Origin: a virus
IMG/VR virus record: IMGVR_UViG_3300009702_000086
Coordinates: 1 to 23,940 of that record
Strand: one strand, 5' to 3'
Length of the DNA stretch: 23,940 nt
A program made the position numbers and the translations under genes. Below are positions 1 to 13,248 of the stretch, one piece after another (within the stretch, counting starts at the first letter, position 1; every line of letters begins with the position of its first letter). The notes beneath the pieces are model-generated. The model had not been told where the DNA came from, did no database searches, and saw nothing but the letters and a program-made list of their open reading frames with translations.

Positions 1-271
1 CAACCGTTCCCGCGCCCTTGAACTGGTTTATAATTCCCGCCTCAAAAGGCCAAGCCATATAAGTGGCAAATCCCCCTGAATGCACTGATATCCCTAAATC
101 TGTTGCCGTTTGAAATGTTGGGGACGTTGAAATAGCAGAGGGGAGATTCCCCGTAACAAGGTCGGCTCTATGCACACCCCCCGCGATATTGGCAAACATC
201 AACCCTTTGGAAAGGTTGTGACTCCAATCAACGTTTGCTGTGTGGTGCGGTTTTACTGTGATAATACTCAC
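1..271 (-). CDS. LamG-like (concanavalin A-like) phage protein, N-terminal part, cut by window edge
   Basis: A GTG codon at 271-269 overlaps by one base the TAG stop of the upstream gene and opens a frame that stays open for 90 codons to the left edge. The visible N-terminus includes HTANVDWSHNLSKGLMFA, followed by a short Gly-rich stretch and PFEAGIINQFKG. The pattern 'NVDWSHPLSKGL' near the N-terminus, followed by a small gap and hydrophobic strands, is a recurring start of phage and bacterial proteins with a LamG or concanavalin A-like jelly-roll, which often bind glycans. The position at the end of the tail-fibre block fits a virion or receptor-binding accessory. The 3' part is outside the window, so the domain assignment rests on the start motif only. 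Base composition is GC-rich like the next three genes and unlike the structural block. Confidence 0.72.
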   Translation of the reverse strand, partial: MSIITVKPHHTANVDWSHNLSKGLMFANIAGGVHRADLVTGNLPSAISTSPTFQTATDLGISVHSGGFATYMAWPFEAGIINQFKGAGTV

Positions 272-759
272 TACTGAACCTCAAGGGGTACTGGCGTCAA
301 TGAGAACCCGCTCAAATTGTTCGTGGCTTTCAAATTGTCCGCCGTATCGTTCCAGAAAACCGGCATAATATAGCGGGCATCCGTTTCTACAAACCCACTT
401 GCAACCATTTCAATGCTTGCCGTGGCTTGATCGACTGCTATCGACCCTAGAAACAATAAGTTGCTTAACTTATCTTTTGCGCTCACTGCGATGTTCCCGG
501 TTCCGTCGTCATTATCAGGGTGAGTCCCGTCCGAAGTTTTCAGATAGATATTGACTCTTTCATCGACTACCGGAGCCGTTGCAAACTGGACCCAAGCCCG
601 CCACATATACCGATTTGCTTTCGCCGTGGCTCCAAAGTCCTTTACCGCCCCCTGACGACCTGCCGCCGTTGCAAGATTGTTCAAGGTCATGGCAAGATCG
701 CCCGTGGTATCGGTCCATGTGATCGCTGTTTCTGCATTGCTGTAAACTTTATTTACCAT
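271..759 (-). CDS. Hypothetical tail-region structural protein, 162 aa
   Basis: This 162-aa protein has an ATG at 759-757 inside the TAATG overlap with the upstream 84-aa gene, so it is probably translated by coupling. The sequence is rich in Thr, Ala, Asn and Asp, has no signal peptide or membrane segment, and shows alternating hydrophobic strands (RAWVQFATAP, VNIYLKTSDG, ARYIMPVFWND) typical of a beta-sandwich. A segment around DGTHPDNDDGTGN looks like an acidic loop that could bind calcium. I do not recognise a named family. Its place between the distal tail proteins and the LamG-like gene suggests a virion component or adhesin subunit. Codons are GC-richer than those of the terminase-to-fibre block. 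Confidence 0.8.
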   Translation of the reverse strand: MVNKVYSNAETAITWTDTTGDLAMTLNNLATAAGRQGAVKDFGATAKANRYMWRAWVQFATAPVVDERVNIYLKTSDGTHPDNDDGTGNIAVSAKDKLSNLLFLGSIAVDQATASIEMVASGFVETDARYIMPVFWNDTADNLKATNNLSGFSLTPVPLEVQ

Positions 760-1013
760 TACGCATTCACCTCCGCTTCAAAAGTCGTTAAATCAGCATC
801 CGAAATGAAAGTTTTCTTTGCCAGAGCATCACTTCTCCTCGCAAGGTATTGTTTTTTAAACTCCGCCTTCACATCCAGCTTGGTTTCGCCTTGGTGAAAT
901 GAACCGCTGAATCGTTCAGCTCCGTCCACATTCCCATTGACGACACGCCGGACTGTGATAAACCGCATATTACTGCGTTCCGTATGACCCTCAATTTCCC
1001 AAACAATAGGCAT
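759..1013 (-). CDS. Small hypothetical protein, 84 aa, tail-fibre cluster
   Basis: The start ATG at 1013 is preceded by a clear SD (AAAGGAGA, about six bases upstream), and the stop overlaps the next start as TAATG. The protein is soluble and mixed alpha/beta: an N-terminal strand region (MPIVWEIEGHTERSNMRFITVRR) leads to a charged helical C-terminus. No family was recognised. The good SD, one of the few in the distal part of this operon, suggests it initiates independently and then feeds the 162-aa gene by coupling. Small genes between fibre genes are often assembly chaperones or minor tail parts, but nothing in the sequence proves that here. Confidence 0.78.
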   Translation of the reverse strand: MPIVWEIEGHTERSNMRFITVRRVVNGNVDGAERFSGSFHQGETKLDVKAEFKKQYLARRSDALAKKTFISDADLTTFEAEVNA

Positions 1014-1024
1014 GATATTCTCCT

Positions 1025-2662
1025 TTATGGTTCAGTTATCTTTAAACAAACGCTCAATCCCTTAGCTGCTGTTCCCGTCTGGATTGCATCTATATCAACG
1101 GTAATAATATCATCGTCAGTAACGGCAGTCGTTGTGAGCGTTGGTTGAGTTACGGCTGTCTTTGATGATTTTTCCGCCGTTTCAATGCTGATCTTATTCG
1201 TTGTCATTATCGTCGTGCCGTTCAAATTCAAATCAACGGTCATGGTTCCGGTTGTTCCTGCCGTATTCACATAGCCGCGAACCGATTGAATAGTTCCCGT
1301 CCAGGGTATCCTGAAATCTCCACCATTTGCCGTCGCAACCGTAACAGCCGTTGTATGGCCAACGACTCGAAAACAAGGGTGGTGTGTTAGAGTAGTGTGG
1401 GCTAGATCAGAGATATCACTCTCAGTAATCGGATCAACTGTTATGGCTTGACCCAATAAGGATAAATATGTACCTGTGCCGCCTAAGGTAACTAAAGACT
1501 GGTGTGCTTCAGATAAAGCCGCGTGAGTCGAGATAGCACTATCAATCTCTGTTGTGGCATCCGTACAAGACTCAGTCACCCCACTCGCATCGACTCCAAG
1601 GGGATACGACCCAGCCGCACAATTAGCCCCATTAGCTGCAAGAGCAGTTGCTGTTGGGGCATTCCCCACAACAAAATCCACATCCCCCGTCACGTCTTGA
1701 TAAGTTATAGTAATTCCTGTATGTGTTCCGGTTCCATCTCCTATTAATGCCCCAGCGAAATCCTCAACCTGTTCTTGTGATAACTGCGTATCAGTGTCAA
1801 CATCAGCGGTACATGATTCTACTGCTCCACTCGCATCAACTCCAAGCGGATAGTTGCCAGCCGCACAGTTCGCGCCATTTGCGGCAAGGGCCGTTGCTGT
1901 CGTGGCAAGGTCGATTGTGATATTATTTGCAACTTCGTTATCTGCCCAAGGATTCGTTGTATTAACCCAATTCCCCGTAATCGTTTCTACACCAGCCAAA
2001 TTTAAAGTAGTGTCTGTGGTATGCGCTCCTGGGAAAAACTCATAAGTAGCTATACCATCATCTCCAATTTTGACGGTCTCCGTAGTAGTATCCCACTCAA
2101 TATCTCCATCAACAGTAGGATCACTTACGCCTTGTTCCTCTAGAATAATATCACTTGTAGAGATTGCTCCTAATGCAATAGTAAGAGCGTCTGAAATTTG
2201 AGCATCTGCTATTTCCCCGACAGAGAAAAAACCAGTTGCAGAGTCTCCAGTAAGTGCCGCTCCAGCTTCCGCATCTCCAGCTGCATAATTCCCTGTTGTG
2301 TCTGTTGTGAGGGCAACAGAATTCGCTTGCACATCGCCTGAAATCGTATTAGCAGTATTAGTGAAGTTAATATCCCCTGTATCTGCAAAATCAGGATCAA
2401 CTACCGCAACTGTATCAACAGTAATACTATCTCCACCAGCTGCTCCAGGGCATGTTATATACTCAAATTTATTCGTATCGGTAGAGTCAACAGTTACACA
2501 CTCCCCCACTAATGGAGAATCAGTACCATCATCCAAAATACTTGTAGTAACTGAGTCAACTGTTAATGATCCTCCTCCTCTTCCTTGTGGAGGAGCTCCA
2601 GAGATGTCCCCAGTTATTAAAAGAAGACTTAAGACAAGTATCGATATGAGTTTATTTTTCAT
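1025..2662 (-). CDS. Secreted-looking repeat-containing tail-region protein (545 aa)
   Basis: A long Thr/Asp/Ala-rich beta-structured protein in the tail-fibre cluster. Residues 1-23 look like a Sec signal peptide: Lys at 2 and 4, a hydrophobic core over 5-16, then small residues. A Gly-rich stretch follows. Residues about 255-285 and 337-367 are two copies of a 31-residue repeat (ALAANGANCAAG then YPLGVDASG and ESCT) with 28 of 31 identities. The C-terminal part (about 430-545) looks like a beta-sandwich of the kind that caps phage fibres. There are eight cysteines (55, 71, 266, 284, 348, 366, 430, 539). The start overlaps the previous stop as TAATG. A role in host attachment is inferred from position and composition; an exported host-modifying protein is the main alternative. 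The 3' half of the gene is GC-rich and the 5' third is AT-rich, suggesting a chimera. Confidence 0.82.
   Translation of the reverse strand: MKNKLISILVLSLLLITGDISGAPPQGRGGGSLTVDSVTTSILDDGTDSPLVGECVTVDSTDTNKFEYITCPGAAGGDSITVDTVAVVDPDFADTGDINFTNTANTISGDVQANSVALTTDTTGNYAAGDAEAGAALTGDSATGFFSVGEIADAQISDALTIALGAISTSDIILEEQGVSDPTVDGDIEWDTTTETVKIGDDGIATYEFFPGAHTTDTTLNLAGVETITGNWVNTTNPWADNEVANNITIDLATTATALAANGANCAAGNYPLGVDASGAVESCTADVDTDTQLSQEQVEDFAGALIGDGTGTHTGITITYQDVTGDVDFVVGNAPTATALAANGANCAAGSYPLGVDASGVTESCTDATTEIDSAISTHAALSEAHQSLVTLGGTGTYLSLLGQAITVDPITESDISDLAHTTLTHHPCFRVVGHTTAVTVATANGGDFRIPWTGTIQSVRGYVNTAGTTGTMTVDLNLNGTTIMTTNKISIETAEKSSKTAVTQPTLTTTAVTDDDIITVDIDAIQTGTAAKGLSVCLKITEP
1562..1900 (-). 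repeat. Pair of 31-residue coding repeats inside the 545-aa protein
   Basis: Copy 1 lies at 1808-1900 and copy 2 at 1562-1654. The two encode nearly the same peptide (28 of 31 residues identical), but many codons differ at synonymous positions, for example GCC/GCT, GGC/GGG, AAC/AAT and CCG/CCC. Each copy carries two cysteines 18 residues apart. The 153-bp stretch between them encodes another Thr/Gly/Asp-rich segment (DTQLSQEQVEDFAG onward). Confidence 0.9.
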
Positions 2663-3036
2663 TATATATCACAATTAAAGGATTCAGTAATAAGACACAT
2701 AGGATTTTGTGTCCCAGTAAGATGTTGTAAATTATAAGTAAATCCCACATGAACTATAATATCAAATATATATATATTATTAGCTCCTAAACTTAAACCA
2801 TTATTAAGTTCAAGAGTTTTAGTAATACCCCCTAATGTTCCTATAACTTTAACAACAGATTCTGTTGGAACCATTATTTGAATAGAATGTTTAACAGGGG
2901 CGTTATAGTATTCCTGGAATCCTCTTTTTCCTGGACGTACTTCAGAACCTATATCGGAAGCAAACCAATCTGTATTTATAGCTACAGATACATTATCCCA
3001 TTTTTGAGCTTTTTGTATAGTAAATATTCCGTTCAT
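2662..3036 (-). CDS. Hypothetical virion-associated protein, 124 aa
   Basis: This 124-aa protein has no signal peptide or transmembrane segment. It contains strand-rich segments such as KHSIQIMVPTESVVKVIGTLGG, then IYIFDIIVHVGFTYNLQHLTGTQN and MCLITESF near the end. The layout (a Trp-containing N-terminus, a central strand region, and a closing region that begins with N-I-Y-I-F-D) suggests a single beta-sandwich domain. I do not recognise the family with certainty. The ATG at 3036 has no convincing SD, and the gap to the upstream 78-aa gene is about 40 bases with nothing obvious in it. The stop overlaps the start of the 545-aa gene (TAATG). The gene is AT-rich like the core structural block, so the composition change begins downstream of it. 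Confidence 0.8.
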   Translation of the reverse strand: MNGIFTIQKAQKWDNVSVAINTDWFASDIGSEVRPGKRGFQEYYNAPVKHSIQIMVPTESVVKVIGTLGGITKTLELNNGLSLGANNIYIFDIIVHVGFTYNLQHLTGTQNPMCLITESFNCDI

Positions 3037-3315: not shown

Positions 3316-4587
3316 TTATTTTTTCACTCCGTAAAGTTTGAATTTTCCTGATGTAATATTCCCGGAATCCATAATTATCCTAAGGGCATCAATAGCATTG
3401 CTAGTCCCTTTGTAAGCAGCCGATCCAGAAACCTGTTGGAGCGTTCCGCCAGCATGAATATAACTTCCACAAACCTGAAACAATTTAGTTAATGATGTCT
3501 CGGAAGGATTGAAAATTTTGATAACTCCGCTAAAAGATTCACCGGCGGCGTTTCCCACATCTCCTCCAATTGAGTTACGAGTTAATAAAATGTGGCCTAA
3601 ATTTGGTTCTGTTTGGCTAATATATATATCATTACCTGAATCAATTGTAGAAATTGAAAGTTCATAATCAGATGCCCCTGTCTTAAAAGTTGAACCTCCA
3701 TCCTCAGAAACAACTAACCGAACCTCACTGTCATCTGTCGCCGGAACTAGATTTATAATATGAAGTTCATATTCTTCATAAGTTGAATCAATATTGGTTG
3801 TAAAATCAATGGAAGAGCTAGCTGAAGCAGTTGCTGTTAATAATAACGCTAATCCTTGTGGAGTTTTAGCAAGAGCCTCTATTCCGTCTAATTTCGTGCC
3901 GTCTGCTGTAATATCTCGACCATTAAGGTTTCCTGTTAAAGTTCCTCCAGCTAAAGGTAAATGACCAACAAGTCGATAGTCATTTACTAACTTCATAAGG
4001 TTATTAGAAACTAACTTATCTTTTGTAACATCTGTATCTGTTTCATCTACTCCTACTGAAGCAGAAAGAGCAGAAAGATCATTAAGAATTAAAGCACCAA
4101 GGGAATTGAATTGGAGAAATTTACTTGCTCTATCTGAAAGTTCATCAGTTATTTCTAATATTCCAGCATCTGAAACATCGGAAGAAAATTTAAATGATCG
4201 TCCTATAGCATCTTGTATCTGTTGAACTAACATTACAAGACGATCTTCAATAGTTTCTATATCATCTACAGGAAGATCTTGAGCTTCTGTTAAATCAGTA
4301 GTTTGAGTAACTGGAAGTATTCTTTCTACTGTTATTTTATGAGTAGATAATGGAGCTGTATTAAAGGTTATAGCTGTACTTAAAAAATCTCCGGCAACAA
4401 CCGCAGTATAATCATAAGTACCTGATCCATTTAATACAGAAGTAGTAATTGTATCTGGAGTTGTAGCAGTATCTCTTAAAGTTACAACTAATGTACTATT
4501 AAGAAAAGTTTTTTTGGTAAAAGAAAATAATACACTAGATCCATTACCTAAAAATCTTTGTATATTTTCTGTAGTAGCTAGTGTCAT
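3316..4587 (-). CDS. Tail fibre protein with T7 gp17-type N-terminal domain
   Basis: This 423-aa protein should attach to the tail tube and contact the host surface. Residues 1-140 match the T7 tail-fibre N-terminal domain pattern (Pfam Phage_T7_tail): a beta-rich start, then ERILPVTQTTDL at 88-99 and the helical signature IETIEDRLVMLVQQIQDAIG at about 110-129. The middle (about 140-240) is a short shaft-like region ending near DITADGTKLDGIE. The C-terminal 170 residues form a separate beta-rich module ending in GKFKLYGVKK, as in many podovirus fibres. The start is an ATGA overlap with the upstream ejection-protein gene, with a good SD (AAGGAGATAG). It is shorter than T7 gp17 (553 aa). Additional adhesin genes downstream may complete the receptor-binding apparatus. 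Confidence 0.9.
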   Translation of the reverse strand: MTLATTENIQRFLGNGSSVLFSFTKKTFLNSTLVVTLRDTATTPDTITTSVLNGSGTYDYTAVVAGDFLSTAITFNTAPLSTHKITVERILPVTQTTDLTEAQDLPVDDIETIEDRLVMLVQQIQDAIGRSFKFSSDVSDAGILEITDELSDRASKFLQFNSLGALILNDLSALSASVGVDETDTDVTKDKLVSNNLMKLVNDYRLVGHLPLAGGTLTGNLNGRDITADGTKLDGIEALAKTPQGLALLLTATASASSSIDFTTNIDSTYEEYELHIINLVPATDDSEVRLVVSEDGGSTFKTGASDYELSISTIDSGNDIYISQTEPNLGHILLTRNSIGGDVGNAAGESFSGVIKIFNPSETSLTKLFQVCGSYIHAGGTLQQVSGSAAYKGTSNAIDALRIIMDSGNITSGKFKLYGVKK

Positions 4588-12254: not shown

Positions 12255-12809
12255 TTATTGTTTAGGTGGATTAAGAATAGATATTGTATCAAGTATTTTA
12301 GAAGAAGCTGATTGAAAACCTTTAGTAATAGCTGATCTTCCTCTAAATTTTTCTAATGCTATATCTTGTTTTTTACCAAAAACAAATACTTCATTATTAA
12401 ATTTAGAAATAAGTTGTTCTAATTCAAAAGTCTGTGCATCATTATTAAAAACATCTTCAAATCCTGAAAGACCTGATCCAGCTGCAGCAGCTCTAGCCTC
12501 TTTTTGAACAGCAACAAATCTTTTTCTTTCTCTTAATCTATCTAATGCATTAGCCTCTGTGGCTAATTGAATTTCATTCTCTATAAAATTTACATTAGAA
12601 TCTCTTAAACTAGATTCTTGAAAACCTGAAAATACATCATTAACTGCTTGAAAACCTCCAGAAAGTAAACCTAATTTTTTTGGGTCATTAAAGAAATTAG
12701 TAAAGGAAAAACCACTTCCAGAACCTCCTGAAAAATCAGTAGCTCCAGAAAAAGCATTTTCAGAAAAACTAGTTCCTATACTAAATAAATTATTCCCACT
12801 ACTTTCCAT
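12255..12809 (-). CDS. gp14-like internal virion protein, 184 aa
   Basis: A small protein with a Gly/Ser/Phe-rich N-terminus (SGGSGSGFSFTNFF at about 28-41), a short hydrophobic patch (LGLLSGGFQAVNDVF), and a central amphipathic helical domain with an Ala-rich turn (ARAAAAGSGLSG at about 106-117). This design (flexible N-terminus, small hydrophobic segment, long helix containing an 'AAAAGxSG' block) is characteristic of T7 gp14-type core proteins, which help form the channel through which DNA passes into the cell. Position supports it: it lies between the GNAT-like gene and the gp15-like gene. It overlaps the GNAT-like gene by 11 bases and the following gene starts one base after its stop. 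Confidence 0.82.
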   Translation of the reverse strand: MESSGNNLFSIGTSFSENAFSGATDFSGGSGSGFSFTNFFNDPKKLGLLSGGFQAVNDVFSGFQESSLRDSNVNFIENEIQLATEANALDRLRERKRFVAVQKEARAAAAGSGLSGFEDVFNNDAQTFELEQLISKFNNEVFVFGKKQDIALEKFRGRSAITKGFQSASSKILDTISILNPPKQ

Positions 12810-13248
12810 AATAAGCCACTCTTACAACATCTCTTTTATCAGAAGTAAACATTTTCATAGTACCCTCTTGTTTAAATCCAAATAATTTAGCAAATCTAAT
12901 ACATTGATCACTTTCACTAGGAACGTAACCTTGCATTCTATGAAGTTTCATTTCATACATAAATGTATAAAGATAATTTTTCATTATTTTTATAGATTTA
13001 CGTATAGAATTAGAATTACTCCAACAACGTCTTCCTACATAAATATAAATTTCTCCAACACCTTTCCACATTCTATAAGAACCAGCAGATAAAACAGGAA
13101 TATTATTCTCAAGAATAGTGTAACATTTAAAATTATCATTTACCCATAAATAATTCATAATATCTGTAGTTTCGCACAAAATTCCAGGTCTAGATTTATC
13201 TAAATCCATTAATCGTAAATGACTTATATTAAAAGGAACTACTCTCAT
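12799..13248 (-). CDS. GNAT-like protein in the T7 gp13 position, 149 aa
   Basis: The C-terminal third (about 102-131, beginning LHRMQGYVPSESDQC, then IRFAKLFGFKQEGTM) matches the closing part of GNAT acetyltransferases: 'H R ... V ... S ... LF GF K EG ..'. The central beta region (GVGEIYIYVGRRCW at 63-76) fits strand four and the following loop, but the usual acetyl-CoA binding motif (Q/RxxGxG/A) is degenerate here, so catalysis is uncertain. In T7-like phages the gene between tail tubular B and gp14 is gp13, an internal virion protein, and GNAT-like folds are known from this slot in related phages. The ATG overlaps the tail tubular B stop by four bases, and the end overlaps gp14-like by eleven. 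Confidence 0.8.
   Translation of the reverse strand: MRVVPFNISHLRLMDLDKSRPGILCETTDIMNYLWVNDNFKCYTILENNIPVLSAGSYRMWKGVGEIYIYVGRRCWSNSNSIRKSIKIMKNYLYTFMYEMKLHRMQGYVPSESDQCIRFAKLFGFKQEGTMKMFTSDKRDVVRVAYYGK

Follow-up and report, generated by a model that had tools for sequence, protein, structure and literature searches.

A 545-aa protein encoded at the end of the tail module of an HTVC010P/T7-like podophage is probably a tail-fibre-derived adhesin that is exported and oxidised outside the cytoplasm. Taken separately, export with oxidation is very likely on the sequence evidence, and the assignment as a fibre-type adhesin is likely. The leader, the cysteine pairing pattern, the fibre modules and the conservation of their combination were computed directly, and ~75 further proteins, almost all of them from uncultivated viruses, have the same combination of leader and paired cysteines.

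Gene start, leader and genome setting

The window, a 23.9-kb virus record, carries on its minus strand a T7-like structural cluster, with terminase and portal at one end, a tail fibre at the other and capsid, tail tubular proteins and internal virion proteins in between; the record belongs to an HTVC010P/T7-like podophage. Among cultured relatives of its tail tubular protein B, HTVC010P-type Pelagibacter phages rank at the top with ~42% identity. Past the tail fibre follow a 78-aa ORF, a 124-aa ORF and the 545-aa ORF (Table 1). Elsewhere in the window (12799-13248), a 149-aa protein is weakly related to phage acetyltransferases, and its position matches that of the annotated acetyltransferase of Pelagibacter phages, e.g. 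HTVC035P.

Table 1 Features of the 545-aa protein and its neighbourhood in the window.
Feature	Position	Strand	
Tail fibre, separate, with podophage tail-protein N-terminus and without leader	3316..4587	-	
124-aa gene upstream of the 545-aa ORF; stop overlaps ATG (TAATG); 62% identity to the L264 counterpart	2662..3036	-	
545-aa fibre-type protein, predicted exported, cysteine-paired (CDS)	1025..2662	-	
Sec-type leader, residues 1-23; ...GAPPQG also in the L264 leader at this locus	2594..2662	-	
Cysteine pair 1, residues 55-71	2450..2500	-	
Cys-repeat copy 1, residues 257-285 (Cys266/Cys284)	1808..1894	-	
QLSQEQVEDFAGALI...TYQDVTGDVDFVV segment, residues 285-333, common to leaderless phage fibre-type proteins	1664..1810	-	
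Cys-repeat copy 2, residues 339-367 (Cys348/Cys366)	1562..1648	-	
C-terminal jelly-roll (C1q/TNF-like knob), residues 426-544; Cys430 on first strand, Cys539 on last	1031..1387	-	

The protein begins with MKNKLISILVLSLLLITGDISGAPPQGRGGG, and its leader is MKNKLISILVLSLLLITGDISGA. We regard its ATG start as firm: there is an in-frame TGA three codons before it, the preceding 124-aa gene has a stop that overlaps the ATG, and the next ATG occurs only at codon 474. A start downstream of the leader would need TTG43 or GTG52, the sole early alternatives, and is less plausible than the coupled ATG. Leaders were scored with a home-made heuristic (positive n-region, hydrophobic core, and small residues at -3/-1 or a lipobox) and not with SignalP. 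By this test the Sec-like leader that a sequence-only reading had noticed on this tail-cluster protein is present at the true start, with n-, h- and c-regions, and none of the other window ORFs of at least 90 aa passed. The heuristic prefers cleavage at 18/19; two other possible sites are 22/23 (G|A) and 23/24 (A|P), the latter with proline at +1, which is unfavourable. A lipobox cysteine is absent after the leader, the first cysteine being residue 55.

The nearest relative of the window by its gp16-like protein is the contig L264, which has the same order of fibre, 125-aa gene and leader-bearing protein; its 125-aa gene is 62% identical to the 124-aa gene of the window. The L264 leader MKCYIVYVLIFLLTTVSAYGAPPQGAG aligns to that of the window through GAPPQG, while the 238-aa L264 body is unrelated and found nothing when searched in cultured phages. 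The heuristic scores of the two leaders are 3.07 in the window, among the lowest in the family, and 4.06 in L264. Receptor-binding proteins typically exchange their bodies, and by this analogy we infer that the difference between L264 and the window may be a body exchange of the receptor-binding type. GC content gives a similar picture: the leader (36%) lies between the upstream structural genes (~30%) and the gene body (46%), consistent with a resident leader to which a body from outside was joined. The rise from ~30% to 46-49% occurs near window position 2600 and continues through the following genes to the contig end, and suggests that window 1-2600 may be a recently acquired block of fibre-type genes. 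In the cultured HTVC010P-like relatives, no leader-bearing protein was found at this locus. In L264, the gene after the exported protein (L264:15090-15521) encodes 143 aa with a strong leader (MKIFLSFLFIVSISVPSFA) and two cysteines, and is followed by a 93-aa protein with a hydrophobic C-terminal stretch; these two are possibly lysis genes.

Cysteine pairs and fibre modules

The eight cysteines of the protein lie at residues 55, 71, 266, 284, 348, 366, 430 and 539 and group as 55/71, 266/284, 348/366 and 430/539. The two pairs within the repeats are both spaced by 18, and the positions agree with the earlier description of spaced pairs, one in each repeat. At 14.7 per 1000 aa, cysteine density far exceeds that of the other window structural proteins, which hold 8 cysteines in ~5,340 aa (~1.5 per 1000; binomial P ~2e-6).

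Neither Pfam nor PHROGs gave a match to the whole 545-aa protein, with no adhesin, surface-anchor or enzyme domain, and a sequence search of solved structures also found nothing. The N-terminal tail-attachment domain of podophage fibres (T7 gp17 type) was likewise not detected in it by PHROG or Pfam, whereas the neighbouring tail fibre carries such a domain. The C-terminal knob, in contrast, recurs without a leader in 61 distinct phage proteins of the fetched loci and also occurs in cultured phages. An AlphaFold monomer model of the knob (71 sequences) is a confident jelly-roll with a pLDDT of 85. In structure it comes closest to the tail fibre of Agrobacterium phage 7-7-1, namely to that fibre's C-terminal part (Z 9.6); next are a phage baseplate-cup protein and C1q/TNF folds (Z 7-9). 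The matching viral structures (BFVD) are tail fibre, minor tail and collagen-like proteins. The modules of the 545-aa protein are phage tail-fibre modules.

None of the 61 leaderless knobs has cysteines at both the 430- and 539-equivalent positions, which only the window copy combines. A Cys430-Cys539 disulfide is plausible in the modelled knob because the first and last strands adjoin in C1q/TNF jelly rolls. L005/L149 has a leader, yet its knob lacks the cysteine pair, and the link between the two is therefore not absolute.

The motif family across virus contigs

Relatives were sought by protein, with a degenerate DNA pattern for NGxNCxAGxYxLG and by motif alignment; leaders had no part in the last two. 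The motif NGxNCxAGxxPLGVDxxGxxExC was found on ~60 IMG/VR contigs. Leaving the cysteine codon free in the DNA pattern gave 61 contigs instead of 60, the extra one an unrelated chance match, and the cysteine therefore belongs to the motif. As a suggestive point only, the cysteine motif may be a W-to-C version of a common fibre hairpin. The motif was absent from 50,697 cultured phage records, and the L014 protein found nothing in phages and plasmids. Among 84,980 bacterial and archaeal genomes there was one relative, on a 57-kb contig under a Nanohalarchaeota MAG (L047, DAOWAN010000002.1), where two large leader-bearing, cysteine-rich proteins lie side by side; this is possibly a misbinned phage contig.

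Leaders accompany the motif almost throughout. Among distinct, N-terminally complete motif carriers, 52 of 55 scored as signal peptide or lipoprotein by the heuristic, whereas the other ORFs of 250 aa or more on these contigs did so in 99 of 596 cases (OR 87, P 6e-33, a value that overstates independence, the distinct family proteins being related sequences). The three that did not score (L073, L097 and L102) also show a leader when inspected, which in L102 lies far inside the longest ORF. In the wider motif family, 64 of 78 scored directly; inspection showed a hydrophobic N-terminal stretch in 11 of the remaining 14 and none in L131, L143 and L178, possibly owing to frameshifts or wrong starts. 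The proteins vary in length from ~200 to 2,600 aa and have different leaders; the family is thus not one recent gene copied many times. A chance leader was rejected in view of this family-wide co-occurrence of leader and motif and of the leader retained in L264.

Cysteine parity points in the same direction as export. Mature exported proteins have an even cysteine count in 29/39 motif carriers and 60/81 others (74%), against 169/357 (47%) of non-exported proteins on the same contigs (pooled Fisher P ~3e-7, again overstated by relatedness), and the median density per 1000 aa is 15.0 in exported non-motif proteins versus 6.1. Even counts are what disulfide pairing would favour.

Around motif carriers, the upstream genes have matches among tail fibre, tail, head-tail adaptor and head families and the downstream genes among virion structural, minor tail and baseplate families. 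A leader is also present in the next gene downstream in 19 of 34 cases and in the next gene upstream in 8 of 46; exported proteins thus occur a few in a row where the tail module ends. Two genes past one Cys-motif protein, L126:12100-14220 encodes a leader-bearing right-handed beta-helix (Pfam Beta_helix), a possible exported tailspike-like enzyme. Several leader-bearing proteins (L014:9781-11958, L027:10731-12008, L090:7074-7901 and L181:1338-2135) end in similar tails such as RRIIIIE, EVIIIE, SVIIIE or AVVIVE, which may serve as a sorting signal or form a terminal strand. Bacterial contamination was rejected: the window holds a T7-like module from terminase to fibre, the neighbours of the motif family are phage genes, and Terminase_6N was matched on 16 of 50 contigs and a T7-type portal on 4. 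Against the preferred reading stand the fragmentary state of many family contigs and the limited share with a Terminase_6N match.

Several exported members continue, immediately behind the predicted cleavage site, with a sequence matching the Met-start of leaderless phage fibres (L014/L220, L141/L226, L146/L207 and L096/L128). The mature start of L014 is ATRGIVPRAGGEGTIGTAAKHW and L220 starts (M)ATKSIVPRANGEGSLGTSAKGW; that of L141 is ADVAISALTALT...ELVIVDVSE and L226 starts (M)ANKKITALTALT...VLAIVDASE. Similarly, L007/L009 have the mature start (A)DWxFNPFTxxLD, compared with five proteins starting MxxxFNPxTGxxD. By analogy with the usual role of fibre N-termini, those of the exported members may attach fibres to tails; if they do, their retention favours a virion role. 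The mature N-terminus of the 545-aa protein matches no leaderless fibre start.

Destination of the exported protein and known systems

From these features we infer a course of cleavage, disulfide formation, trimerisation, timing, destination and binding. The infected cell would export the tail-fibre-derived adhesin via Sec, expressing it late from the end of the virion-gene cluster. The leader would be removed and the mature chain would fold outside the cytoplasm, where its cysteines would pair, clipping the repeats into hairpin-like units; in the jelly-roll knob, probably a trimer, a disulfide would join the first strand to the last. The mature protein would then act outside cells as a receptor- or surface-binding fibre. 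Our preferred destination, held tentatively, is the progeny virion, with the fibre meeting and decorating particles at lysis; a counterpoint is that the window phage already has a separate tail fibre. Receptor masking takes a sizeable minority share beside it, the extracellular matrix a small one and any other destination a slighter one. Extended to many uncultivated tailed phages, the proposal that one fibre class is built via host Sec, with periplasmic folding, disulfides and virion attachment at lysis, is a conjecture that we put forward with more doubt than confidence.

Export of this tail-cluster protein, one of two explanations in the sequence-only reading, finds support in the conservation of leader and cysteines over dozens of contigs, in the L264 leader with its swapped body and in cysteine parity. 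The exported protein may serve in surface modification or superinfection exclusion, the two roles offered there. The remark that a signal peptide would harm assembly applies if the protein is assembled in the cytoplasm and falls away otherwise. It is quite unlikely that the protein is an ordinary cytoplasmic virion protein whose leader-like start arose by chance or is a membrane-interacting N-terminal segment used inside the virion. Its heuristic score is indeed modest, and the test is likewise passed by ~17% of the remaining long ORFs on related contigs; against this, leaders occur in almost all motif carriers and are absent from proteins with the knob alone, the leader was retained while the body was swapped, and the even-cysteine excess is confined to leader-bearing proteins. 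The other explanation, a leader recruited from a bacterial adhesin, was not supported. Capture of such a gene or of its leader alone is very improbable: the high GC of the gene body and following genes relative to the structural cluster does indicate a body probably acquired from elsewhere, but the leader itself, at 36% GC, matches that of L264, a single relative turned up in the 84,980 genomes, neither an adhesin nor a surface-anchor domain was found in the protein, and its relatives and modules are those of phage tail fibres.

In superinfection exclusion by receptor masking, the exported knob would occupy the receptor that the phage itself uses, both on the infected cell and on debris, and protect progeny without ever entering the virion. 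The gene lies two short genes past the tail fibre and carries fibre-type modules, and SIP-1 (PMC12124388) and lambda Lom (PMC12309495) are exported phage proteins encoded beside receptor-binding genes. We nevertheless consider masking rather unlikely, since the leader lacks a lipobox, the protein is far larger than Llp-type proteins, and several relatives retain fibre N-termini behind the leader that a masking protein would not need. Moreover, the protein has no similarity to the phage's own tail fibre; a receptor domain shared with that fibre was accordingly rejected, and a common receptor is not indicated. Improbable, too, is a secreted adhesin or enzyme that binds or cuts extracellular polysaccharide around the infected cell. 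The leader-bearing genes that follow Cys-motif genes (19/34 vs 8/46 before), one of them a beta-helix, speak for it, whereas no enzyme domain was found in the 545-aa protein and no beta-helix in the window.

The usual view is that the fibres of tailed phages are made in the cytoplasm and attached there. Here a large fibre-type group carries Sec leaders and paired cysteines, with a motif not found in cultured phages. This implies one of two things: in some phages the virion fibres mature in the host periplasm, or such phages often export fibre-module copies that act on the infected cell. If the reading as a Sec-made fibre is true, not all of a tailed virion is built in the cytoplasm. Either outcome would change the annotation of receptor-binding proteins in viral metagenomes, where a leader may pass as a sign of a host gene. 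The literature searched, with most subscription journals outside its reach, yielded no description of exported tail fibres.

Several known systems share part of this picture. T5 Llp, a superinfection exclusion protein, masks receptors on the infected cell and debris. SIP-1 of phage IsaakIselin is a predicted exported protein whose gene lies beside receptor-binding genes (PMC12124388). Both are exported, as predicted for the 545-aa protein, and like it are encoded next to receptor-binding genes; unlike it, they are small, TonB-like or lipoproteins, and have neither fibre modules nor Cys repeats. Lambda Lom bears a signal peptide and is encoded between tail spike and tail fibre genes (PMC12309495), but is an outer-membrane beta-barrel and not fibre-type. 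Porphyromonas gingivalis phages (Nixviridae) encode proteins of unknown function with host-adapted Sec leaders (PMC10367356); these are not described as tail-fibre-type or cysteine-paired. Secreted endolysins with Sec or SAR signals (fOg44 Lys44, P1 Lyz) are also Sec-exported phage proteins, and P1 Lyz uses disulfides (PMC6116005), yet these are lysis enzymes and not adhesins. The target proteins of phage DGRs are reported to lack signal peptides (PMC6199706), in contrast to the 545-aa family. The same C-terminal jelly-roll, also near tail genes, occurs in leaderless fibre or virion proteins of Rhodobacteraceae phage LS06-2018-MD05 (annotated 'virion structural protein'), Sphingomonas phage Carli and Microcystis phage Mwe-JY26, from which the 545-aa protein is set apart by its leader and by the cysteine pair on the first and last strands.
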